Below are positions 5,325 to 16,374 of a stretch of DNA of 64,000 bases, in pieces. The DNA lies in assembly GCA_947259005.1 (NCBI GenBank), contig CAMYKP010000006.1:744001-808000 (forward strand). The letters run 5' to 3'. The notes under the pieces are model-generated. The model had not been told where the DNA came from. It ran no database searches and saw only the letters and a program-made list of their open reading frames with translations. The DNA is from an uncultured Parasphingopyxis sp. Lineage in GTDB: Bacteria; Pseudomonadota; Alphaproteobacteria; Sphingomonadales; Sphingomonadaceae. The translations under genes and the position numbers were made by a program. Each line of letters begins with the position of its first letter. Within the stretch, counting starts at the first letter, position 1.

Positions 5325-6701
5325 CTATTTCGCCGCCTTTTTCCGCGTCATTGCGTCACGGAATTTCCTGGCCCAGCCCGGCTTCGCGCTTTGCTCGCCC
5401 CGCGTCATGCCCAGCGCATCGGCCTCGACATCTTTCGTCACGACCGATCCCGCGCCGACAATCGCGCCCGCGCCGATCTTCACCGGGGCAACCAGCGCAC
5501 TGTTCGATCCGATAAAGGCCCCTTCCCCGATCTCGGTCCGATATTTGAAAAAGCCGTCATAATTGCAGGTGATCGTACCGGCGCCGATATTGGCGCCCGC
5601 GCCGACCGTCGCATCGCCGAGATAGGTCAGGTGGCTGGCCTTCGCACCCGGCCCGAGCACCGCCTTTTTCATCTCGACGAAATTGCCGACTTTCGAGCCT
5701 TTTTCCATCACCGCACCGGGACGCAGCCGCGCATAGGGCCCGACCGAACAATCCGGCCCGACGCTTGCCCCTTCGATATGGCTGAACGCATGGATCGTCG
5801 CATTGTCGGCGACGCTGGAACCGGGGCCGAAACGCACCTGCGGTTCTATCGTCACATCGCGGCCGATCCGGGTATCATGGCTGAACCAGACGGTCGCGGG
5901 ATCGACCAACGTAGCTCCATCGGCCATCGCCTGCGCGCGGCGGCGATCCTGCCATTGGCGCTCAACCTCGGCCAGTTCGGCGCGGCTGTTGATCCCGGCC
6001 ACTTCCCAGGGAGCCGCTTCGATCACGGCGCTGTGGCGGCCATCCTGCTGCGCCACCATCACCATGTCGGGCAGATAATATTCGCCCTGCGCATTGTCGT
6101 TCCCGACCCGGTCCAGCAGCGCAAACATATCCGCCGCCTTCGCCGCGATCAGGCCGGAATTGCACAGGTTTACGGCGCGCTCTTCTTCGCTCGCATCCTT
6201 GTATTCAACCATCTTTTCGATGCGCCCGTTGTCGTCGGCAATGATCCGGCCATAGGCCAGCGCGTCGTCGGGGCGGAAACCCAGCACCACGCAGGCGGGA
6301 CCATCGGGACCATTCAGCGTTTCCAGCATTTGGGCGATTGTCTCAGCCCGCACCATCGGCACATCGCCGAAACAGGCCAGAACCGCGCCGTCGAAATCGG
6401 CCAGCGCCCCGCGCGCCTGCAGGACGGCATGACCGGTGCCGAGCTGGTCTTCCTGCACCGCAACCGATGCGCCCCTTTCGATCGCAAAGGGTTCGACCTC
6501 TTCGCGTCCGGCGCCCAGAACGACGACAGTTTTTGCGGGTTCGAGCCGGGCCAGCTCGTCCATCAGATGGCCGAGCATCGGCTTTCCAGCGATCGGGTGC
6601 AGCACCTTGTGGCGCGCGGATTTCATCCGGGTGCCTTTGCCCGCAGCAAGAATGATCGCGGCAAAGGGCGTGGAAATGGTTGGAGCGTCTTGTGCTGTCA
6701 T
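5325..6701 (-). CDS. glmU: Bifunctional UDP-N-acetylglucosamine pyrophosphorylase / glucosamine-1-phosphate N-acetyltransferase
   Basis: A 458-residue enzyme catalysing the last two steps to UDP-GlcNAc, the precursor of peptidoglycan and lipid A. The N-terminal nucleotidyltransferase domain has the signature LAAGKGTRMKS (about residues 18-28) and later DGPACVVLGFRP. The C-terminal half is a left-handed beta helix of hexapeptide repeats, with the acetyltransferase active-site region NFVEMKKAVLGPGAKASHLTYLGD and TITCNYDGFFKYRT. Length and domain order match GlmU. It is followed on the opposite strand by the TetR gene, and preceded by a 129-bp gap. Confidence 0.97.
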   Translation of the reverse strand: MTAQDAPTISTPFAAIILAAGKGTRMKSARHKVLHPIAGKPMLGHLMDELARLEPAKTVVVLGAGREEVEPFAIERGASVAVQEDQLGTGHAVLQARGALADFDGAVLACFGDVPMVRAETIAQMLETLNGPDGPACVVLGFRPDDALAYGRIIADDNGRIEKMVEYKDASEEERAVNLCNSGLIAAKAADMFALLDRVGNDNAQGEYYLPDMVMVAQQDGRHSAVIEAAPWEVAGINSRAELAEVERQWQDRRRAQAMADGATLVDPATVWFSHDTRIGRDVTIEPQVRFGPGSSVADNATIHAFSHIEGASVGPDCSVGPYARLRPGAVMEKGSKVGNFVEMKKAVLGPGAKASHLTYLGDATVGAGANIGAGTITCNYDGFFKYRTEIGEGAFIGSNSALVAPVKIGAGAIVGAGSVVTKDVEADALGMTRGEQSAKPGWARKFRDAMTRKKAAK

Positions 6702-6830
6702 GCTGACCGTCTGCCAGCAATCGCGTTAAAATTCCATGGGCGAGTTTTCGAGTTCGGCGATCGCCCGTGCCGAATGTGGTTCCGGGTAGAAAAGCAGTTT
6801 CGCCTTCCTACCCGGGACCATTGTGCAGGA

Positions 6831-7235
6831 TCATTGTGGATCCATTCCATTCGCAATGTTGCGATACACTTCGCGGAGCAATTCGTTCGCGTAGATCCGG
6901 AAAAGATCGTCCATCAACGTCTGGATCAGTGCCAGATGACCGGCTCCTGTGCCGGTTCCGACCCAGCCAGTACCGCCCGCAGCCTTCAGTTTCGCCTCGT
7001 CGGCGGCAACTTTCGCCTTCAGCGCCTTGTACATCGCGATCAGAACCTGAAGTCTTGCCAGATCGGATGTCGCATTGCCCAGGCCATCGACCAGTTCGTC
7101 TTTCAGGTCCGACGGCAGGCCCGCAATTGCGGCAGCCTTTGATAAATCGGCTGCAGTGCGCGCATTCTCTGCGATTGTGTCATGCGCTTCTGCCAGAACG
7201 CGGTAATTGTCCGCTAACGGTTTTAGACTTGCCAT
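6831..7235 (-). CDS. Hypothetical alpha-helical protein downstream of the HPr-rel-A cassette
   Basis: A 134-residue soluble-looking protein, rich in Ala, Leu, Lys and Asp, predicted to be almost entirely helical with heptad-like stretches (NARTAADLSKAAAIAGL; LARLQVLIAMYKALKAKVA) broken by a glycine-rich linker GGTGWVGTGTGAG. The start at 7235 is supported by AGAGGAG; longer frames run through the nucleotidyltransferase gene in another frame. It is on the same strand as the kinase/PqqD/nucleotidyltransferase genes, 88 bp downstream of the last, so it may be a fifth member of that operon or an independent gene. No family recognised. Confidence 0.7.
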   Translation of the reverse strand: MASLKPLADNYRVLAEAHDTIAENARTAADLSKAAAIAGLPSDLKDELVDGLGNATSDLARLQVLIAMYKALKAKVAADEAKLKAAGGTGWVGTGTGAGHLALIQTLMDDLFRIYANELLREVYRNIANGMDPQ

Positions 7236-7323
7236 CACTATTCTCCTCTGTTGTTGGCAGAGTGAATATGATCCGGTTGCCTTGTACCCGCTGTGCGCCA
7301 AAGCACAGTTTGGAGCGGTTGCC

Positions 7324-8343
7324 CTATCCCTTCCGCCACTTCGTCCAGAGATGCTTCGCGAGCATAAACGGCGGCATGCGGAGCCAGTGGGAACGGATAT
7401 AGAAAGCAAGGCGCAGCAGCTTGCGGATTTCGCGTCCCCAGCCATCGCGGGCCAGCAAGCGGCGGATATAGAGCGCATCGCCTGCCCTGCCCCGGCCCGC
7501 CGCGTCACCTTCCAGCGGCGTGCCATATAGCGCCTCGGCAAGGCGTAGCGCCCGGGCGACCGGCTTTTGCAATTGATGCCGCTGCGCGCGTTCACCCAGA
7601 GCCTGCCAGAATCCGTCTCGCGGTCCGAAATCGCGGACCAGCCGGTCGATATCCCACAGGTTGCGCAGCCCGCCCGCCAGATCGCCATCGGCGAAGAGAT
7701 GCGCTGCGGAATGGCAAACCATATCGGCGGGAGAGAGGACGCGCAGTCCGTTCGCCAGTTCCACGCTGTCGGCAATCATCGCTTCGGCATCGGGCGTCGG
7801 CTTGGCCGTCAGCGGCAATACCGTGTGATGGACATCGATCATCCGGTCACGCTCTTTATGGATCAGCGGCGGCAGCTCATGCATGTAATCGCGATAATAG
7901 GCGTCGTCATAGGCATCCTCCTTCACCCACTCCCAGCCGCCCTGTTCGATCAACGCCCGCTCGACCGCATCGAGAGCATCCCGGCGCACAAGGATGTCGA
8001 GATCGCCAATCGACCGGCCTATCCCCGCCGACAGGCCAGCCGCGACATAGGCCGTGCCTTTCAGCAGCACGACGGGTTCGCCCAGCGGAGCCAGCACGCG
8101 GCGCGCCATTTCGGCTTCCCATAGCGCCTGCCGCCGCGCGTGTTCGGCGGACTGGCGGGCATCGGTGCAAAGCTGCGCTACTTTTTCGGGCAAATGGTCG
8201 AGTCCGTCGAGCCGGTGGGCAAGACTGCCCATCAATTGCTCGGCGCGCGCCATGGCGATCAGGGCGGTCCAGCCTTCGGCGTCGAGAGCCCGGGTAGTGG
8301 CGGGATCAACGAGCGCGCGAACAAGGAGGCGAGCGTCGGTCAT
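7324..8343 (-). CDS. Nucleotidyltransferase family protein of the HPr-rel-A cassette
   Basis: A 339-residue protein of the uncharacterised nucleotidyltransferase family (NTP_transf_5-like). The catalytic region reads VVLLKGTAYVAAGL then GRSIGDLDILVRRDAL (residues about 91-124), with the metal-binding pair D114-x-D116 after a GRS motif. The C-terminal half is helical. Its ATG overlaps the stop of the HprK-like kinase gene (ATGA at 8340-8343), so the two are translationally coupled. Related nucleotidyltransferases accompany HprK-like kinases in several peptide-tailoring loci, including some lasso peptide clusters. Here the substrate is unknown, and a peptide or phosphopeptide is an inference from neighbours. 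Confidence 0.85.
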   Translation of the reverse strand: MTDARLLVRALVDPATTRALDAEGWTALIAMARAEQLMGSLAHRLDGLDHLPEKVAQLCTDARQSAEHARRQALWEAEMARRVLAPLGEPVVLLKGTAYVAAGLSAGIGRSIGDLDILVRRDALDAVERALIEQGGWEWVKEDAYDDAYYRDYMHELPPLIHKERDRMIDVHHTVLPLTAKPTPDAEAMIADSVELANGLRVLSPADMVCHSAAHLFADGDLAGGLRNLWDIDRLVRDFGPRDGFWQALGERAQRHQLQKPVARALRLAEALYGTPLEGDAAGRGRAGDALYIRRLLARDGWGREIRKLLRLAFYIRSHWLRMPPFMLAKHLWTKWRKG

Positions 8344-9200
8344 TCGGCCAACTCCGCCCAGAGCCGCTCGACACTGGCGACAGCGCTTTCGGTATCGGGA
8401 TAGTCGACCGCCCGGGTCGGGATCGTGCGCACCAGCGAAGAGAGTGCGTCGAAACCCGCCTCGCCCAGCGCGACATAGTTGGTCGAAGCCTGGGTCAGCC
8501 GGACGAATATTTCCGCCTCGCCGACTTTGCGGATATCCACGGCATGGCCGAAACGCGGGAAGAGGAGCAGCGCCGGTTTGGCGGGCTCGCGCATTCTCGC
8601 CACAGCCTCTTTCGGCGGGCGCAAATGCCGGATATCTCCCTTGGGCGTATCGCGCATCAGCGGACCAAGACGGTCAGATTGAACCTCCCCTTCCATCACC
8701 GCTATGGCTTCATTTTTGAGGCTCACCAGTCTGGGAAAGGCGTGCAGCGCACCGGAGTCCAGGTCGATCAGCGCAAATTCGTCGCCCATGAAGCGCCAGC
8801 CGCGCTCACCGAGCAATGCGGAGAGCGTCGATTTGCCCGCGCCCGAATGACCGGTCATCAGCAATGCCCTGCCATCGCGCTCCACCGCCGAGGCATGGAG
8901 CAGCAGATAGCGACGCTGGCCGAGCGCCATTTGCAGGTTCATCCCCATCTCGGCGGCCAGCAGGCCATGGGCGAGCGACAGGGGCGCTGCATCCGGCAGC
9001 ATATAATCGCCGCCGATCATCACCGAGGGACGGATAAAGCGCCGCCACGGCCGCTGGGCGAACAGCCTTACGGTAAAATCGGGAATATCGGGAGCCGGAT
9101 AGTCGGCATAAAGCGCCGACAGCTGGTCGAGCGGCCGCTTCCAGTCCGATCCTATCCGGAAACCGACCGGCCCGACGGTGACGCGAAACTCATGCTTCAT
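8340..9200 (-). CDS. HprK-related kinase A
   Basis: A 286-residue protein related to HPr kinase/phosphorylase. The ATP-binding P-loop is GHSGAGKST (residues 117-125), preceded by LLLHASAVERDGRALLMT and followed by GWRFMGDEFALIDLDSG, the hallmark order of HprK-like kinases (a His-containing strand, Walker A, then an acidic motif). No HPr, EI or other PTS protein lies in the window, so a PTS role is unlikely. The start at 9200 is preferred over a GTG at 9209 because its ATG overlaps the stop of the PqqD-like gene (ATGA). It matches the HprK-related kinase A group that occurs with a PqqD-like protein and a nucleotidyltransferase in sphingomonads. The substrate is unknown. Confidence 0.87.
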   Translation of the reverse strand: MKHEFRVTVGPVGFRIGSDWKRPLDQLSALYADYPAPDIPDFTVRLFAQRPWRRFIRPSVMIGGDYMLPDAAPLSLAHGLLAAEMGMNLQMALGQRRYLLLHASAVERDGRALLMTGHSGAGKSTLSALLGERGWRFMGDEFALIDLDSGALHAFPRLVSLKNEAIAVMEGEVQSDRLGPLMRDTPKGDIRHLRPPKEAVARMREPAKPALLLFPRFGHAVDIRKVGEAEIFVRLTQASTNYVALGEAGFDALSSLVRTIPTRAVDYPDTESAVASVERLWAELAE

Positions 9201-9478
9201 GCCCGCCACACCAGGCCGGATGTTTCCAGCTCGGCCAGCCGCGCTTCCAGAGCCGCTTCCAGATCGTCGCTGTCGCCGAAATCATAATCGCGCCTCAGAC
9301 GTTCGAGCAGGGCCGCAGGCTCTGCTTCACCCTCGGCCAGCGCTTCGAGAATCTGCGGCGCGGGCGGCGCCAATATATGGGTCAGGCCGGAGGGGCGGTG
9401 GAAAATGAGCGCCACGCCATCGAGCGCAACCAAATACCGGGCCTCGGGTGGATCGGCGCGATAGGCAGGTGCGTTCAT
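9197..9478 (-). CDS. HPr-rel-A system PqqD family peptide chaperone
   Basis: A 93-residue PqqD-like protein: a short beta-rich N-terminal half (RYLVALDGVALIFHRPSGLTHILAPPA) followed by helices (QILEALAEGEAEPAALLERLRRDYDF and DDLEAALEARLAELETSGLVWRA), the standard PqqD winged fold of about 90 residues. PqqD proteins bind leader peptides of ribosomally made precursors and deliver them to modifying enzymes. The gene starts 19 bp after a gene for a small Tat-signal protein and overlaps the kinase gene by ATGA. This suggests that the small upstream protein is the bound peptide and the kinase the modifying enzyme; that pairing is inference. Confidence 0.82.
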   Translation of the reverse strand: MNAPAYRADPPEARYLVALDGVALIFHRPSGLTHILAPPAPQILEALAEGEAEPAALLERLRRDYDFGDSDDLEAALEARLAELETSGLVWRA

Positions 9479-9497
9479 GACGGGAAGCGGCGGAGCG

Positions 9498-9908
9498 TCA
9501 GCCCCGGGACATCTGGATCGAGGCGTAGCAGGTAAAGCCGCTCATGCCGTTCTGGAGACGGCGAATGTAATTGGTATAGGCTTGGCTTTCTTCATAGCCA
9601 TAGCCGGGAATGGGGCCGCCGCTCTGCAATGCGCCGCGAACTTCCTCGCCAACCAGGTTGCGACCCGGCGGCGGAAATGCGCCCGGTGTACCCGGAGGCA
9701 CAACCGATCCGTCGGCAGCGATATAATTGCCCATCCGGCCGGGATCGGGAATCGGGATTTCGCAGGCCATGATGGATGCCTGGGTCTGGGCCAGAGCGGG
9801 GCGCACGGTGACGACGGTCGACGCGGCAGCCGCGCCCATCATCAACACATGGCGACGGTCCGGCTTGGTTATGCCCCGCTCGCCTGTCTCTTCGCTTTCT
9901 TCAGCCAT
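9498..9908 (-). CDS. Small Tat-signal protein, candidate substrate of the HPr-rel-A cassette
   Basis: A 136-residue protein with a twin-arginine-like signal: acidic start, then PDRRHVLMMGAAAASTVVTVRPALA (RR at residues 18-19; cleavage expected after ALA at about residue 40). The mature part is about 95 residues, rich in Gly and Pro, with a conserved-looking C-terminus YTNYIRRLQNGMSGFTCYAS and final residues IQMSRG. Cysteines are C49 and C127; serines near the C-terminus are S123, S130 and S134. It is the first gene of the operon leading into the PqqD-like, HprK-like and nucleotidyltransferase genes, with GGGAAG before the start. Being first, short and exported makes it the best candidate for the modified product, but I do not recognise its family. 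Confidence 0.72.
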   Translation of the reverse strand: MAEESEETGERGITKPDRRHVLMMGAAAASTVVTVRPALAQTQASIMACEIPIPDPGRMGNYIAADGSVVPPGTPGAFPPPGRNLVGEEVRGALQSGGPIPGYGYEESQAYTNYIRRLQNGMSGFTCYASIQMSRG

Positions 9909-9936
9909 GCCGTTCTTCCCAAATCCCGCTCTTCAG

Positions 9937-9979
9937 TTGTTACACTAGTCCGCCGCGCCTGTACTGGCGAGTGTAACAA
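9937..9979. promoter_or_regulatory. Widely spaced inverted repeat between the HPr-rel-A operon and phoR
   Basis: TTGTTACACT (9937-9946) and its exact reverse complement AGTGTAACAA (9970-9979) are separated by 23 bp, giving a centre-to-centre distance of 33 bp, close to three helical turns. They lie in the 93-bp gap between the divergent small Tat-signal gene and phoR. No PHO-box-like CTGTCAT repeats are seen. The element could be an operator for either direction. No regulator is assigned. Confidence 0.5.
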
Positions 9980-10001
9980 TAGCACTGTATCAATCCGCTT
10001 A

Positions 10002-11306
10002 ATGCCCCAGATAACCCCTCTTCGCGCCATTGTCGCGCTATTAACCACCTTTGGCCTTGGCTATGTCGCCTACACGCTCGGCGCCGAACCGTTGCCGGTG
10101 ATATTGGCCTGTATCGGCGGTTTGGCCGGAGGGATCGCTCTCGGAAGCTCCGGGAATCCGAACGCCGTCCCATCAGAACCGGCCAGTCCGGAGCCTCCGC
10201 CCATATCCGACGAATCGCTGTTTCCGACCCTGGAAGAGTTGATGAACGCCATCGACGATCCGAGCCTGATCATCGTCGGTCGCCGGGTGGTGCGAGCCAA
10301 TCCGAGCGCGCTGAACTTGCTCGGCACGCATATCATCGGTGAAGATGTCAGACTTGCCATCCGCCACCCTGCCGCCGCCGAACGCCTGACCGGCGAGGCA
10401 GGCGCGGAAGAATCGCGCGTCGCGATGGAACTGGTCGGGATTGGCGAGCTGGAACGCCCATGGGAACTCATCATCCATGAACTGAAGGGCAATGCGCGCT
10501 TCATTCGGCTGGCGGATCGCAGCAGCGCCCATGCTGCAGAAAAGATGCGCGCCGATTTCGTCGCCAATGCCAGCCATGAACTGCGTACGCCGCTCGCCTC
10601 CCTGCTCGGCTATATCGAAACCCTTCAGGATGGCGCGGCCAAGGACAAGAAAACCCGCAATCGCTTTCTCGAAATCATGCATGGCGAAGCCAGCCGGATG
10701 CAGCGCCTGATCGGCGACCTCATGTCGCTTTCCCGGATTGAGGCGGAGAAATACCGCGCCCCGGCAGACGATATAGATCTCGGTCCATTGATCGAAGAGG
10801 CCTGCCGCGCGACCTGCACAGAATCCGGCTTCGACAGCACAAGCGTTGAGATCCGTCCCGAGACAGGGGACGTCCATATCGCCGGGGACCGGGTTCAGGT
10901 TACCCAGTTGATCAGCAATCTTGTCGGCAACGCCCTTAAATATGGCAAAGGCGCCGATCCGGTCGTGGTGGGCTATGGCTCGATTTCGGAAACCATGGTC
11001 CGTATTACGGTACAAGATCATGGCGAAGGTATAGCGCCTGAACATCTGCCCCGCCTGACCGAGCGTTTTTACCGGATAGACCCGGGCCGCAGCCGGTCTT
11101 TGGGCGGAACGGGGCTGGGTCTGGCCATCGTCAAACATATCGTCGAGCGGCATCGGGGCAGGCTCAATATCGAGAGCGAAGTCGGGTCGGGCACGAAGGT
11201 CAGTGTCGATTTACCGAAAAAACCGTCTGCGATGTCATCTTCCCGTAATGAGAATGTCACAAAGGCGGGGACACCATCTCTGGTCGCAACGCGCGATTCG
11301 CGATGA
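10002..11306 (+). CDS. phoR: Phosphate regulon sensor histidine kinase PhoR
   Basis: A 434-residue kinase. Two N-terminal membrane helices (about residues 8-28 and 31-50) are followed by a PAS-like segment (about 78-175), then the dimerisation/phosphoacceptor domain with H192 in ANASHELRTPLASLLGY. The ATPase domain has the N box NLVGNALKYGKG, G1 VQDHGEGIAP and G2 GGTGLGLAIVKHIVERHRG. The ATG at 10002 is used because the longer frame upstream is the antisense of the small Tat gene. It heads the phoR-pstC-pstA-pstB-phoU-phoB gene run, the order known from Caulobacter and sphingomonads. It should phosphorylate PhoB under phosphate limitation and be restrained by Pst/PhoU. Confidence 0.93.
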   Translation: MPQITPLRAIVALLTTFGLGYVAYTLGAEPLPVILACIGGLAGGIALGSSGNPNAVPSEPASPEPPPISDESLFPTLEELMNAIDDPSLIIVGRRVVRANPSALNLLGTHIIGEDVRLAIRHPAAAERLTGEAGAEESRVAMELVGIGELERPWELIIHELKGNARFIRLADRSSAHAAEKMRADFVANASHELRTPLASLLGYIETLQDGAAKDKKTRNRFLEIMHGEASRMQRLIGDLMSLSRIEAEKYRAPADDIDLGPLIEEACRATCTESGFDSTSVEIRPETGDVHIAGDRVQVTQLISNLVGNALKYGKGADPVVVGYGSISETMVRITVQDHGEGIAPEHLPRLTERFYRIDPGRSRSLGGTGLGLAIVKHIVERHRGRLNIESEVGSGTKVSVDLPKKPSAMSSSRNENVTKAGTPSLVATRDSR

Positions 11307-11449
11307 ACCGAATAGCTGACTGAATTTTCAAACCTGCCATGCATTCGCGCATGCCAATCGAAGGAAGAGTGCATGCAATCGGTGCTTCCACGGAGCAGAT
11401 CAAGGCAATCGGTTGATATTTCAGCCGAAAAAGGGATTTAAGCAAGGCC

Positions 11450-12829
11450 GTGTCGATTTTCTCCTTGTCTGTAATGGTGATCGGATTTGCGGTCATCGCC
11501 TGGTTTACGGCGCGGTTTCGGGCAGCACGGTTGCGGCCGCTGGGCGGCGACCGGCCGCATTCCCTGCCGGGCTATCATGGCTGGTATGTTGCGCTCTGGC
11601 TGGCGATTCCCGCCCTGCTGTTTCTCACTGTCTGGTCGCTTTTCCTGCCCGGCCTTGTCGAGCAATCGGTATTGCTCGATCCCGCCGCTCAGAACCTCCC
11701 GGCATCGCAGATAGAACGCACCGCCATTTTGGGCGAAGCGCGGGCGCTGGCCGACGGCTCGCTCACCGCTGCTTTCAACGAGGAAGCCGAAGCGCTGGTC
11801 CCCGCCTATCAGGAAGCATCGGGCTTTTATGGCGTGATCGGCATCATTGCGACGTTGCTCCTCGCCTTTGCCTGCGGTGCCTATGCCTTTTTGCGCGTGC
11901 GCCCGGATTTCAGGGCGCGCAACCGCGTCGAACGTGTGGTGATGTGGGTGCTGCTGATCGCTTCGCTGATCGCAATCCTCACAACCATCGGGATCGTCGC
12001 CTCGCTATTGTTCGAGACGATCCGCTTCTTCGAGCGCATTTCAATTGTCGAGTTCATATTCGGCACGCACTGGAACCCCCAATCGACCACTTTCAGTGAC
12101 GATCCGGGGTCTTTCGGCGCCATTCCGCTCTTCTGGGGCACGATCCTGATCGGCGCGATTATCGCGATGATCGTCGCCATCCCGCTCGGCCTGATGAGCG
12201 CAGTCTATCTGACCCAATATGCGCCCGCGAAAGTGCGTTCGGTCATGAAGCCAGTGCTGGAGATTCTCGCCGGTGTTCCGACCGTGGTCTATGGCTATTT
12301 TGCGGCGCTGACCGTCGCACCGGCAATCCGCGATTTCGCCGTCAATGTTATGGGCGTCAGCAGTGCCTCGTCAGAGTCCGCGCTTGCCGCCGGTGTCGTC
12401 ATGGGCGTGATGATTATTCCCTTCGTCTCCTCGATGGCCGACGATTCGCTCGCTGCCGTCCCCGGGGCGATGCGCGACGGCAGCCTCGCCATGGGCGCAA
12501 CCAATTCCGAAACGATCAAGCGCGTGCTTATTCCAGCCGCACTTCCCGGCATCGTTGGCGGCGTATTGCTGGCCGTCAGCCGGGCAATCGGCGAAACGAT
12601 GATCGTGGTCATGGCTGCTGGTCTCGCTGCCAACCTTACCGCCAATCCGTTCGAGAGCGTAACGACCGTGACCGTCCAGATCGTCCAGCTGCTGACCGGC
12701 GATCAGGAATTTGACAGCTCCAAAACGCTCGCGGCCTTTGCGCTGGGCCTGGTGCTCTTCATCGTGACCCTGCTGCTGAACATCATCGCACTCGGCGTCG
12801 TCAAACGCTTCCGGGAGGCCTATGAATAG
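11450..12829 (+). CDS. pstC: Phosphate ABC transporter permease PstC
   Basis: A 459-residue inner-membrane permease of the high-affinity phosphate transporter. The N-terminal third is an extension (two helices plus a loop) common in alphaproteobacterial PstC. The core carries the permease domain with FGAIPLFWGTILIGAIIAMI, the motif EILAGVPTVVYGYFAAL and the EAA-like loop MGATNSETIKRVLIPAALPGIVGG. The start is a GTG at 11450 with AAGG immediately upstream. The stop is followed directly by the pstA start, indicating co-translation. The periplasmic binding protein PstS is not encoded nearby. Confidence 0.93.
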   Translation: MSIFSLSVMVIGFAVIAWFTARFRAARLRPLGGDRPHSLPGYHGWYVALWLAIPALLFLTVWSLFLPGLVEQSVLLDPAAQNLPASQIERTAILGEARALADGSLTAAFNEEAEALVPAYQEASGFYGVIGIIATLLLAFACGAYAFLRVRPDFRARNRVERVVMWVLLIASLIAILTTIGIVASLLFETIRFFERISIVEFIFGTHWNPQSTTFSDDPGSFGAIPLFWGTILIGAIIAMIVAIPLGLMSAVYLTQYAPAKVRSVMKPVLEILAGVPTVVYGYFAALTVAPAIRDFAVNVMGVSSASSESALAAGVVMGVMIIPFVSSMADDSLAAVPGAMRDGSLAMGATNSETIKRVLIPAALPGIVGGVLLAVSRAIGETMIVVMAAGLAANLTANPFESVTTVTVQIVQLLTGDQEFDSSKTLAAFALGLVLFIVTLLLNIIALGVVKRFREAYE

Positions 12830-14125
12830 ATGAATACCGCCATCGCCTCTTCCCCCGATCGTCAACCGACCGACTGGAGCGCGGATGCCATGCAGCGGCG
12901 CATCCGGGCACGGTATCGCGCCGAAAAGCGCTTCCGCTTCTACGGACTGTTCGCCGTGCTGCTTTCGGCGGGTTTCCTCGCATTCCTGCTTGTCACCATG
13001 ATTTCGAGTGGCGCGCGGGGCTTCACCCAGACGCAGATCGCCCTGCCCGTGAACTTCCCCGCATCTGACATTTTCCTCGAACCGAGCCAGCTTGACGGTG
13101 ACGACCGGGATCAATTGCTCGCCCAGACGGATTTCCAGGGACTGGCCCGTCAATCGGCGATTGCCGCCTATGGTGAAGACGGCCCAGCCTTTCTTTCCAA
13201 CGGCGCATGGGTGTTGCTGCGTGATGCGGTGTCGGAAGATCCCTCCCTGCTGACACGCAACGAAACTTTATGGGTCCCCGCGTCGACCGAGGTCGATTTT
13301 GCAGCGCGGGGCGATAGCGGCATGCGCCAATCCGAAGAGCGCGACACGATGAGCACGCGATACGCCGAACTCGAAGCGGCCGATCAGGTGCGCCGTACGC
13401 TGAGCTGGAACTTCCTCACGCTTGCCGATTCGAGCGATCCGACGCTGGTCGGAATCTGGGGCGCGCTCAAGGGTTCGCTGCTGACGATGACGATCACCTT
13501 GCTGCTAGCCTTCCCGATCGGCGTGCTGACCGCCGTCTATCTGGAAGAATATGCGCCGGAGAATCGCTGGACGGACATCATCGAGGTATCGATCAACAAC
13601 TTGGCCGCCGTCCCCTCGATCATTTTCGGGCTGCTCGGGCTCGCGGTGTTCATCAATGTCTTCTACCTGCCCCGATCCGCCGCCATTGTCGGCGGGCTTA
13701 CGCTGGCACTGATGACGATGCCGGTGATCGTGATCGCCGGGCGCAACGCCATCAAATCGGTACCGCCCTCTATCCGCGATGCCGCACTGGGAATCGGGGC
13801 TTCCCCGGTTCAGGTCCTCACCCATCACGTCCTGCCGCTGTCGCTGCCCGGCATCCTGACCGGCACGATCATCGGCATGAGCCGTGCGCTGGGCGAAACG
13901 GCACCGCTGCTGTTGATCGGGATGCGCGCCTTTGTCGCGACACCGCCGGGCGGATTTACCGATCCTGCGACCGTGCTGCCGGTGCAGATTTTCCTCTGGT
14001 CGGACGAGTTGGACCCCGGCTTTGTCGAGAAAACTTCGGCGGCGATTATCGTGCTGCTGCTCTTCCTGCTGGCCATGAACGGCATCGCGATCTGGCTGCG
14101 CAACAAATATGAACAACGTTGGTGA
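12830..14125 (+). CDS. pstA: Phosphate ABC transporter permease PstA
   Basis: A 431-residue permease partner of PstC. A hydrophobic anchor (about residues 40-62) and a ~150-residue periplasmic insert precede the permease core. The core has [20 protein letters not shown] then [16 protein letters not shown], and the cytoplasmic coupling loop [26 protein letters not shown]. Its ATG directly follows the pstC stop. The 3' end overlaps the longest possible pstB frame by 17 bp. Length is above the usual ~300, explained by the N-terminal insert known from alphaproteobacterial homologues. Confidence 0.93.
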
Positions 14126-14948
14126 TATGATGAACGACGCTACGGACACTCAAGCCGAATCCAGAGCCGACGCGCCTGCCCTGGCGCAGGATACGCTCAA
14201 GATGACGGCGCGCAATGTCGACGTATATTACGGCGACAAGCAGGCCATCGACAATGTTTCGATCGATATCGGCATGGAGAATGTCACCGCCTTTATCGGC
14301 CCGTCAGGCTGCGGAAAATCGACCTTCTTGCGCTGTCTCAACCGGATGAACGATACGATTCCGATCGCCCGCGTCACCGGGCAGATCGAGCTCGACGAGA
14401 AAGATATATACGATCCCGCGATGGACGTGGTCCAGCTACGCGCGCGGGTCGGCATGGTGTTCCAGAAGCCAAACCCCTTCCCCAAATCGATCTTCGAAAA
14501 TGTCGCTTATGGCCCGCGCATTCACGGCCTGGCGACATCCAAGTCCGAGCTTGACGAGATCGTCGAGAAATCGCTGATCCGGGCAGGCCTTTTCGAAGAG
14601 GTGAAGGACAGGCTGCATGACAGCGGCACGGCGCTTTCCGGCGGACAGCAGCAGCGGCTGTGCATCGCCCGGGCCATCGCAGTCGATCCCGAGGTCATCC
14701 TGATGGACGAGCCCTGTTCGGCGCTCGATCCGATTGCCACCGCCAAGATCGAGGAACTTATCAACGACCTGCGCGGGAAATATGCGATCGTGATCGTCAC
14801 CCACAATATGCAGCAGGCCGCCCGCGTCTCCCAGCGCACCGCCTTTTTCCATCTCGGTACGCTCGTCGAATATGGCGAAACCTCCGACCTGTTCACCAAT
14901 CCGAGCCAGGACAGGACGAAGGACTATATCACCGGCCGTTACGGCTAG
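14109..14948 (+). CDS. pstB: Phosphate ABC transporter ATP-binding protein PstB
   Basis: The ATPase of the phosphate importer, up to 279 residues. Walker A is GPSGCGKST, the Q-loop region is [21 protein letters not shown], the signature is [17 protein letters not shown] and Walker B is [13 protein letters not shown]; the PstB-specific opening [19 protein letters not shown] is present. The start is ambiguous: ATG at 14109 overlaps pstA, while ATGs at 14127 and 14130 lie just after the pstA stop. In addition to transport it relays phosphate status, with PhoU, to PhoR. Confidence 0.95.
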
Positions 14949-14959
14949 TCAGGACAGTT

Positions 14960-15679
14960 ATGATGCCAAAAAACAGCGAACATACGGTCTCCGCGTTCGA
15001 CGACGATATTGGCGAACTGCGAGCCCTTGTCTCGGAAATGGGCGGACTCGCCGAAACGGCCATCGGCGATGCGATCCACGCGCTGATCCGGCACGACCTG
15101 GAAACGGCATCGCGGATCGTTGAGGAAGATTCCCGGATCGACGAACTGGAATCAGAAGTGGAGCGCCTCGCCGTCCGCCTGATCGCGCTGCGCGCGCCCA
15201 TGGCCAACGACCTGCGCGAAGCGGTCGCTGCTATCAAGATCGCCACCGTTCTTGAGCGGATCGGCGACTATGCGAAAAACATCGCCAAGCGCGTGCCGAT
15301 TTTCGATCATCGCACTGATATCGAACCACTCAGCATCCTGCCGTCCATGGCCCAGATCGTTCAGGAAATGGTTCATAATGTGCTGGATGCGTTCGCCGCG
15401 CGGGATGCGGAAGTGGCGAAACAGGTGATCGAACGGGACAGTGCCGTCGACGATTTCTACGACAGCCTGTTTCGGGCATTGCTCACCTATATGATGGAAA
15501 ATTCGCACAACATCACCCAGTCCACCCATCTGCTTTTCATCGCCAAGAACCTGGAACGCGTTGGCGACCATGCAACGAACATTGCGGAAATGGTGTATTT
15601 CGCCGCCACCGGCGATTATCTCGACGATCGGCTCGTGGGAGAGCCACCGGTGCCGGAAGCCGGGGAGACGGAAGAATGA
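14960..15679 (+). CDS. phoU: Phosphate signalling protein PhoU
   Basis: A 239-residue protein with the two tandem three-helix PhoU repeats. The first contains LRALVSEMGGLAETAIGDAIHALI and RLIALRAPMANDLREAVAAIKIATVLERIGDYAKNIAKR; the second contains MVHNVLDAFAARDAEVAKQV and FIAKNLERVGDHATNIAEMV. The E-x-x-x-D metal-binding motifs (ERIGD, ERVGD) are intact. The start at 14960 (or 14963) lies 11 bp after pstB; a longer frame would run inside pstB. The stop overlaps the phoB start (ATGA). It couples the Pst transporter to PhoR and represses the regulon when phosphate is plentiful. Confidence 0.95.
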   Translation: MMPKNSEHTVSAFDDDIGELRALVSEMGGLAETAIGDAIHALIRHDLETASRIVEEDSRIDELESEVERLAVRLIALRAPMANDLREAVAAIKIATVLERIGDYAKNIAKRVPIFDHRTDIEPLSILPSMAQIVQEMVHNVLDAFAARDAEVAKQVIERDSAVDDFYDSLFRALLTYMMENSHNITQSTHLLFIAKNLERVGDHATNIAEMVYFAATGDYLDDRLVGEPPVPEAGETEE

Positions 15680-16374
15680 GCAAGGCAAAACTTCTGCTGG
15701 TCGAAGACGATATGGCGCTGACCGAATTGCTGATCTGGCATTTCGAGCGCGAGGAATTCAACGTCAAGCATACGGTCGATGGCGAAGAAGCGATCCTTCT
15801 GGCGCGCGAAAATCCGCCCGACCTCGTCCTGCTCGACTGGATGATCGAAGGCCTTTCCGGCATTGAAGTGTGCCGCCGCCTCCGCCGCATGCCCGATACC
15901 GCCAATGTGCCGATCATCATGCTCACCGCGCGCGGCGAGGAGGAAGACCGGGTCCGCGGACTTGAAACCGGGGCCGATGACTATGTCACCAAGCCCTTCA
16001 GCCCGCGCGAACTGGTTGCCCGGGTCGGCGCGGTGCTGCGCCGCGTGCGCCCTGCCCTTGCCGGCGAGCCATTGCTCCATGGCGATCTTGCGATGGACAC
16101 GGTGAGCTACAAGGTCCGCCGCGACGGCGAGGTAATCCCGCTCGGCCCCACCGAATTCCGCCTGCTCAAGCATTTTCTCGAGCATCCGGGCCGCGTGTTC
16201 AGCCGGGAACGCCTGCTCGATTCCGTCTGGGGCCATGACTCAGATATCGAACCGCGCACGGTAGACGTGCATATCCGGCGGCTGCGCAAGGCGCTGAACA
16301 AGGGCGGCAAGACGGACATTATCCGCACCGTTCGTTCCGCCGGTTATGCGCTGGATTCAGACGGCGCCGGTTAG
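15676..16374 (+). CDS. phoB: Phosphate regulon response regulator PhoB
   Basis: A 232-residue OmpR/PhoB-type regulator. The receiver domain has the acidic pair in LLVEDDMALTELL, the phosphoacceptor D54 in LVLLDWMIEGLSG, T in MLTARGEEED and K in DYVTKPFSPREL. The C-terminal winged-helix domain contains PTEFRLLKHFLEHPGRVFSRERLLDSVWG and EPRTVDVHIRRLRKAL. It is the last gene of the operon, coupled to phoU by ATGA and followed by a hairpin terminator. It should activate high-affinity phosphate uptake genes by binding PHO boxes; none was recognised convincingly in this window. Confidence 0.95.
   Translation: MSKAKLLLVEDDMALTELLIWHFEREEFNVKHTVDGEEAILLARENPPDLVLLDWMIEGLSGIEVCRRLRRMPDTANVPIIMLTARGEEEDRVRGLETGADDYVTKPFSPRELVARVGAVLRRVRPALAGEPLLHGDLAMDTVSYKVRRDGEVIPLGPTEFRLLKHFLEHPGRVFSRERLLDSVWGHDSDIEPRTVDVHIRRLRKALNKGGKTDIIRTVRSAGYALDSDGAG

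Follow-up and report, generated by a model that had tools for sequence, protein, structure and literature searches.

The stretch of DNA analysed here (the window) comprises 64,000 nucleotides from an uncultured Parasphingopyxis sp. (assembly GCA_947259005.1, contig CAMYKP010000006.1, positions 744,001 to 808,000), and our subject is a cassette of four genes on its minus strand, which encode a small protein with a twin-arginine leader, a PqqD-like protein, an HprK-related kinase and a nucleotidyltransferase (NTase). A preliminary description, made from the sequence alone, had placed these genes together with a gene for a helical protein in one operon and had proposed that the small protein is phosphorylated or nucleotidylated before its export by the twin-arginine translocation (Tat) pathway. 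All five open reading frames (ORFs) are found in the ORF list on the minus strand, which confirms the operon as observed, including the ATGA overlaps that join the middle three genes at 9197-9200 (PqqD/HprK) and 8340-8343 (HprK/NTase); 19 bp separate the end of the small gene from the ATG of the PqqD gene. The genes across 5325-11306 are GlmU, the helical ORF, the four cassette genes and phoR, with glmU lying downstream of the cassette. The features are the following, where RRE stands for the recognition element of ribosomally synthesized and post-translationally modified peptides (RiPPs) and aa for amino acids:

9498-9908, minus strand: small twin-arginine protein of class A, the candidate substrate (136 aa; ORF and profile homologues)
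9789-9857, minus strand: leader with Tat-type signal, R18-A40, predicted by eye to be cut before Q41 (alignment A4 and leader-only profiles)
9519-9533, minus strand: motif T126-C127-Y-A-S130, with S130 as the predicted modification site
9197-9478, minus strand: PqqD-like peptide-recognition protein, a predicted RRE (93 aa; TIGR04353)
8340-9200, minus strand: HprK-related kinase A (286 aa; TIGR04352; catalytic residues kept)
7324-8343, minus strand: NTase of family PF14907 (339 aa; D114 and D116 kept)
6831-7235, minus strand: helical ORF, judged to lie outside the system (homologue only in locus L058)
9909-10001, no strand: divergent promoter region common to the small gene and phoR, poorly conserved
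10002-11306, plus strand: phoR-type gene, a conserved divergent neighbour and context rather than part of the cassette (best hit TIGR02966)

The cassette belongs to the uncharacterised HPr-rel-A system by the cut-offs of two NCBIfam models, both of which are named for 'HPr-rel-A' or an HprK-related system: the PqqD-like protein reaches 64.4 bits with TIGR04353 (cut-off 35) and the kinase 235.7 bits with TIGR04352 (cut-off 200). The NTase matches PF14907 at 172.8 bits (cut-off 31.2). The matching HPr-rel-A models cover the kinase and the PqqD-like protein, whereas the small protein reaches no NCBIfam or Pfam family cut-off, and neither does the helical protein. In the open-licence literature we found no paper on HPr-rel-A, the HprK-related kinase, PF14907 or HprK together with PqqD or XrtA, and wider literature searches showed nothing on the HPr-rel-A system among the papers listed.

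The catalytic residues of both enzymes are intact. Among the kinase homologues aligned, 135/135 keep the H, GxGK, T, DE and N and 134/135 the P-loop Ser (residue numbers in this alignment count from a start 3 codons further upstream); in the NTase, K95, R110, D114, D116, D170 and H172 are invariant in 139/139. The kinase resembles HPr kinase/phosphorylase in its P-loop, catalytic His and Asp-Glu region and gives a weak sequence match to 1knx, 1jb1 and 2qmh, but it differs from that enzyme in reaching only 19.2 bits with TIGR00679 (cut-off 240), and no HPr match is found among the cassette genes with NCBIfam. Comparison of the NTase with PDB sequences gave nothing useful. The PqqD-like protein has a predicted RRE fold: its AlphaFold2 model (predicted local distance difference test score, pLDDT, 92) has three PDB matches at E<=0.001, and the best ones, 5v1v, 5v1u and 6jx3 (E 4e-4 to 9e-4; 20-22% identity), are TbiB1 with leader in the first two cases and a lasso B1 protein with leader in the third. 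The helical protein, which the preliminary description had counted as an operon member, dropped out of the cassette: its cluster consists of the window and L058 only, that is, a homologue in one of the 50 other loci of the 51 compared.

The association of the small protein with the kinase was followed in several samples. Kinase presence was scored at the TIGR04352 cut-off, which gave 47 positive genomes among 98 relatives and 61 among 398 genomes sampled from the phylum; a further set of named loci consists of the best 80 of 196 confirmed among the matches listed, is ordered by similarity to a Herbaspirillum-like kinase, may overlap the other genome samples and is not a fair sample. L117-L120 (kinase under cut-off), G509, G714 and G555 were left out of the counts, and G063, whose kinase at 187.8 bits is under the cut-off, is included in the 48 loci of the relatives and yet stands among the 51 other genomes below. 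Used alone as query, the small protein of the window had a match in 26 of the 98 relatives, all 26 of them among the 47 kinase-positive ones. Profile A4 (35 of 47 class A reference sequences, with long, duplicate or leaderless rows excluded), which is a more sensitive repeat of that search in the same 98 genomes, gave a match in 45/47 genomes with a kinase over the cut-off and in 0/51 others. A4 was built from kinase-bearing loci, therefore the absence of matches in the 51 others is the independent half of this result. The two genomes missed by A4, G079 and G088, do have a small gene at the locus according to an iterated profile, and the same is true for G063, although A4 and A5 found none there. 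This iterated profile, built without L107-L150, finds 50 small ORFs in 48/51 loci of the window's taxonomic order, taken by us to be Sphingomonadales (almost all of these ORFs immediately precede PqqD, or the kinase if PqqD is uncalled), and 28 ORFs at E<0.01 in the 44 further loci L107-L150.

The leader alone gives the same picture. A leader-only profile (A5, 40 of 53 reference sequences), run against the 98 whole genomes at E<=1e-4, gave 48 matches; they fall in 45 genomes, each of which belongs to the 47 kinase-positive ones. This whole-genome search is a cleaner association test than the count with a broader leader profile, which was built from 128 leaders, many of whose source loci were also scored with it, and applied to 17,647 ORFs, all from cassette neighbourhoods. 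The broader profile selects 180 of these ORFs at E<0.01, of which 165 lie upstream of the kinase and the other 15 belong to redundant loci or are relocated, inverted or downstream copies. A leader ORF lies <=1.5 kb upstream of the kinase in 44/48 loci of the relatives, 9/10 loci from the class, 42/55 from the phylum and 67/80 named loci; in the same four sets PqqD is found in 46/48, 10/10, 43/55 and 77/80 loci and the NTase in 45/48, 10/10, 35/55 and 79/80. Away from contig ends the profile missed 12 phylum loci; a twin-arginine ORF can be recognised by eye in the missed L178, L179, L183, L161, L163, L166 and L167, and in L137 the small gene is present in inverted order. A leader profile restricted to the window's order had no false match among 7,862 ORFs. 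The gene order differs in L217, L228 and L241, where a small gene follows the NTase and does not precede PqqD. L270, a metagenome-assembled genome of Phycisphaeraceae and, judged by titles, the sole non-proteobacterial entry of the best 80 named loci, carries kinase, PqqD and NTase, with no small gene found by profile.

The small protein also stays with the system where the cassette is broken up or duplicated. G051 has the small gene beside phoR and PqqD-HprK-NTase ~163 kb away, another gene filling the place of the small one (by eye it looks MarR-like, and NCBIfam gives it no match at E<=1e-20), while G049 has the small and PqqD genes beside phoR and HprK and NTase on a different contig. L083 and L095 hold two small genes each, and G083 and G096 have a further copy away from the cassette (L272:2803-3423(-) and L273:3244-3861(+)), both with the leader and the motif GISCI[IA]SI. 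A chance neighbour is ruled out because of this combination of co-occurrence, split cassettes and extra copies. The small protein is a near-constant partner of the HPr-rel-A cassette, and its proposed role as conserved partner and probable substrate held up; its absence from most homologous cassettes was looked for and is not what we found.

The mature parts of the small proteins diverge until they are barely alignable, and two regions stay conserved. The first is the leader, with the consensus RRxLLKxGAxxxPxxxTLxSxxAxA; in A4 its columns R2, L5 and G8 are invariant and R1, A9 and A23 are kept in >=90%. By its sequence the window protein has the features of a Tat substrate: R18R19, an uncharged h-region and an AxA site ending at A40, with R36 in the c-region; TatC is encoded in the genome (219 bits, cut-off 132.7).

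The second conserved region is a short motif with an invariant Ser. In class A, to which the window protein belongs, it reads [ST]CxxS and is found close to the C-terminus; its Cys and Ser, which are columns C110 and S113 in A4 (C127 and S130 in the window), are invariant in 35/35 rows. The preliminary description had proposed S123, S130 and S134 as candidate sites, of which S130 stands, and S123 and S134 vary in A4. The classes A (91 proteins), B (65) and other (24) were separated by regular expression, and because of this the invariance inside A4 comes partly by selection. Unselected tests were provided by a homology-defined cluster and by the profile-found sets: the cluster, whose members all come from outside the taxonomic class of the window, keeps C and S in 33/33 members, mostly as SCWxS, and [ST]C..S is present in 49/50 profile-found ORFs of the window's order and in 24/28 of the further set, while in shuffled tails of the 50 it occurs on average 0.89 times and at most 5 times. 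The sole exception, L068, looks frame-shifted, and its C-terminal part matches in another frame. The number of cysteines is even in 91/91 class A proteins and would therefore suit disulfides formed after export.

Class B, found mostly in named loci of genera which we take to be of Beta- and Gamma-type, carries C....SGxxSGN directly after the leader (alignment A2, 40 of 66 reference sequences). Its two Ser are kept in 62/64 and 62/63 proteins and its Cys in 62/62; the position of the class A motif Cys is mostly Gly or Ala, and the Ser is kept. In both classes a Ser or Thr stands four residues before the invariant Ser. Overall, S130 is a likely modification site, judging from this conservation. 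None of the 10 representative small proteins reaches an NCBIfam or Pfam cut-off. The class B protein model has a pLDDT of 83.6, with the folded part mostly >90, and no PDB match better than E 2.0; class B members such as L208:6174-6656(+) contain a confidently folded domain SPGYW...LNA... (A2), and the tested ones have no family over cut-off.

Taken together, we hold it to be fairly probable that the whole chain runs from a leader docked on the PqqD-like protein, through phosphorylation of S130 by HprK and extension by the NTase, to Tat export. The leader of the small protein would double as a Tat-type signal and as docking site for the PqqD-like RRE, and the PqqD-like protein would present the substrate to the HprK-like kinase for phosphorylation of the invariant Ser, which is S130 in the window protein and, in class B, the second Ser of SGxxS. 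We infer this phosphorylation because the Ser is conserved and because there are precedents: PadeK and PsmK each phosphorylate a Ser in the respective precursor (PMC9266682; PMC8498205), and LppK polyphosphorylates one core Ser, where Thr and Tyr are not accepted (PMC13381572). The NTase would attach a further group, hexose or nucleotide, onto the phosphate; this step is proposed because PsmN, annotated as a nucleotidyltransferase, is required for that phosphate to receive one or two hexoses (PMC9266682; PMC8498205). Tat would then carry the product across the membrane, signal peptidase would cut after the AxA, and a disulfide may form outside the cytoplasm between the paired cysteines, C49 and C127. 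We know of no description of one N-terminal peptide acting both as RRE leader and as Tat signal.

Several observations weigh against this chain or against the generality of its parts. The TAT model TIGR01409 has no match for the window protein, and the match of L163 is under its cut-off. The motif [YW]xxPx[LVIFA], through which RREs of lasso peptides and of the linear polyphosphorylated peptides (LPP) are bound, is present in only 1/180 leaders, and the window leader has neither Tyr nor Trp; because of this, RRE docking must differ from that in lasso and LPP systems. The motif is degenerate in five class A-like proteins (L152, L238, L242, L244 and L252), and the likeness of classes A and B in their S(i)/S(i+4) spacing was noticed after the fact. 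When extended up to E 0.05, A5 weakly matches kinase-less genomes, the best at 8e-4, and the leader profile from the window's order alone reaches only 13/80 named loci. Since the NTase was seen in only 35/55 phylum loci, partly owing to short stretches or an NTase further off, its core place is less firm. Lastly, four of the 55 phylum loci (L154, L185, L186 and L187) hold the kinase with no small gene or PqqD recognisable by eye or profile.

One could argue that the kinase and the NTase act on the conserved motif by other chemistry, either by direct nucleotidylation of the Ser or by modification of the motif Cys, with the Ser shaping the site. Class A does have an equally invariant Cys at position -3 relative to the Ser, the catalytic Asp of the NTase is intact, and deletion of lppN had no visible effect in a heterologous host (PMC13381572). 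However, class B has mostly Gly or Ala for that Cys while the Ser stays, and the even cysteine counts of class A point to disulfides; thus we find such chemistry unlikely.

That the small protein is exported unmodified, as a partner or sensor, and that the enzymes have another target, for example a component of exopolysaccharide synthesis, would agree with the XrtA/PEP-CTERM cluster genes near 38/80 named loci and with the 4/55 phylum cassettes that have no recognised small gene. We judge this to be quite improbable: a protein of RRE fold calls for a peptide client, conservation is among the highest in the columns of the leader, and a single Ser never varies between proteins that can otherwise barely be aligned.

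Tat redox enzymes have proofreading chaperones, and a twin-arginine signal next to a chaperone-like partner could be read in the same way, with the PqqD-like protein mainly keeping the signal masked while some unrelated step (folding or cofactor) is completed and with the kinase and NTase regulating it. Such a role is very unlikely, given that the best structural matches of the PqqD-like protein are RREs and that no cofactor-binding family is over cut-off for the window protein or the 10 representatives.

A degenerate lasso-peptide cluster can be practically dismissed, even if paeninodin-type clusters likewise contain a kinase, an RRE and an NTase (PMC9266682; PMC8498205), as this reading is contradicted by four absences in a genome that is 84% complete: the lasso cyclase (best match to NF033535 215.9 bits, cut-off 525, from an XrtA amidotransferase ~570 kb from the cassette, which reaches 936.8 bits against its own cut-off of 816.9), the B2 leader protease (0 matches to PF13471 at E<=0.001), a C-terminal Ser (the window protein ends in ...SIQMSRG) and a [YW]xxP leader.

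The phosphorylated lasso peptides (paeninodin, pseudomycoidin and that of S. yanoikuyae) are nevertheless similar to the modification chain that we prefer: an HprK-like kinase acts on a Ser of the precursor, an NTase is needed for the hexose on the phosphate of pseudomycoidin, and the RRE fold is the same. The window system differs in having no cyclase, B2 protease or C-terminal Ser and in its larger precursor. It is also close to the LPP, published in 2026 and reported to be restricted to Bacillota, with which it shares a discrete RRE, an HprK-like kinase and a nucleoside triphosphate (NTP) transferase and the absence of a cyclase (PMC13381572). LPP precursors of 35-200 aa with a conserved N-terminus and a variable C-terminus resemble the small protein, and polysaccharide loci are a frequent home, LPP clusters being often located in those for capsular polysaccharide (PMC13381572). 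In contrast, LPP have a YxxPx leader motif, while the window leader is free of Tyr and Trp, and they have their own SipW-like peptidase and MsbA-like exporter (PMC13381572); no SipW-like peptidase or MsbA-like transporter is present among the genes in 5325-11306, the rest of the genome not having been searched for them. HPr-rel-A is further set apart by its occurrence in Proteobacteria, its Tat-type leader and the CxxS or SGxxS context of its invariant Ser. The cassette would resemble LPP in its working and differs in leader motif, adjacent peptidase and exporter, and HPr-rel-A is best read, in our analysis, as a counterpart in Proteobacteria, coupled to Tat, of the LPP known from Bacillota. 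It may also be called a RiPP system in the wide sense, as judged by the predicted leader-binding RRE and a precursor with a conserved leader.

The preliminary interpretation is thus partly supported. It was right that the system is distinct from lasso peptides; it is not wholly unprecedented, the combination of kinase, RRE and NTase with no cyclase having been described for Bacillota in 2026 (PMC13381572). RRE-guided phosphorylation as such is already known, and what would be new is its action on a Ser of larger substrates that carry a Tat-type leader. If true, the range of this modification would reach beyond small peptides of Bacillota and take in larger proteins exported by Tat. A substrate family with one predicted site makes the orphan HPr-rel-A system directly testable and offers a clue to the product of XrtA exopolysaccharide loci.

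Two neighbourhoods of the cassette could bear on its function. The first is the phosphate regulon: a phoR-type gene (TIGR02966, 285.6 bits, under the cut-off of 334.2) lies 93 bp upstream of the small gene in divergent orientation and begins a phoR-pstC-pstA-pstB-phoU-phoB run (10002-16374). A phoR homologue is the divergent next gene in 37/48 small-gene loci of the window's order, plus the window; five of the 39 members of this phoR cluster were run against NCBIfam, where TIGR02966 was best in four and second in one, always under cut-off. This conserved placement of phoR beside the small gene suggests phosphate control of the cassette. Between the two genes lies a perfect 10-nt inverted repeat, TTGTTACACT/AGTGTAACAA at 9937-9946/9970-9979, with the arms 23 nt apart; we did not retain it as a conserved site of Pho type, since half-sites resembling TGTTACA recur only in some members of the genus.

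The second neighbourhood concerns exopolysaccharide, to which a link is plausible. The 38 of 80 named loci mentioned above have at least one XrtA/PEP-CTERM cluster gene within 7 kb and the other 42 have none, as a raw count without background frequency. These neighbours are PrsK, PrsR, PrsT, export, chain length, tyrosine kinase, amidotransferase, glycosyltransferase and TIGR03016 genes, with only representatives of each cluster identified by model. A tentative and rather doubtful extension of our reading is that HPr-rel-A makes a phosphoserine-linked glycoprotein, a Tat-exported carrier whose Ser would receive first phosphate and then sugar and which could serve as anchor, primer or organiser of an XrtA-type exopolysaccharide in the periplasm or outside. 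A gene for an HtrA/MarP-like serine protease is found within 7 kb in 24/80 named loci and also at L178:3678-4463.

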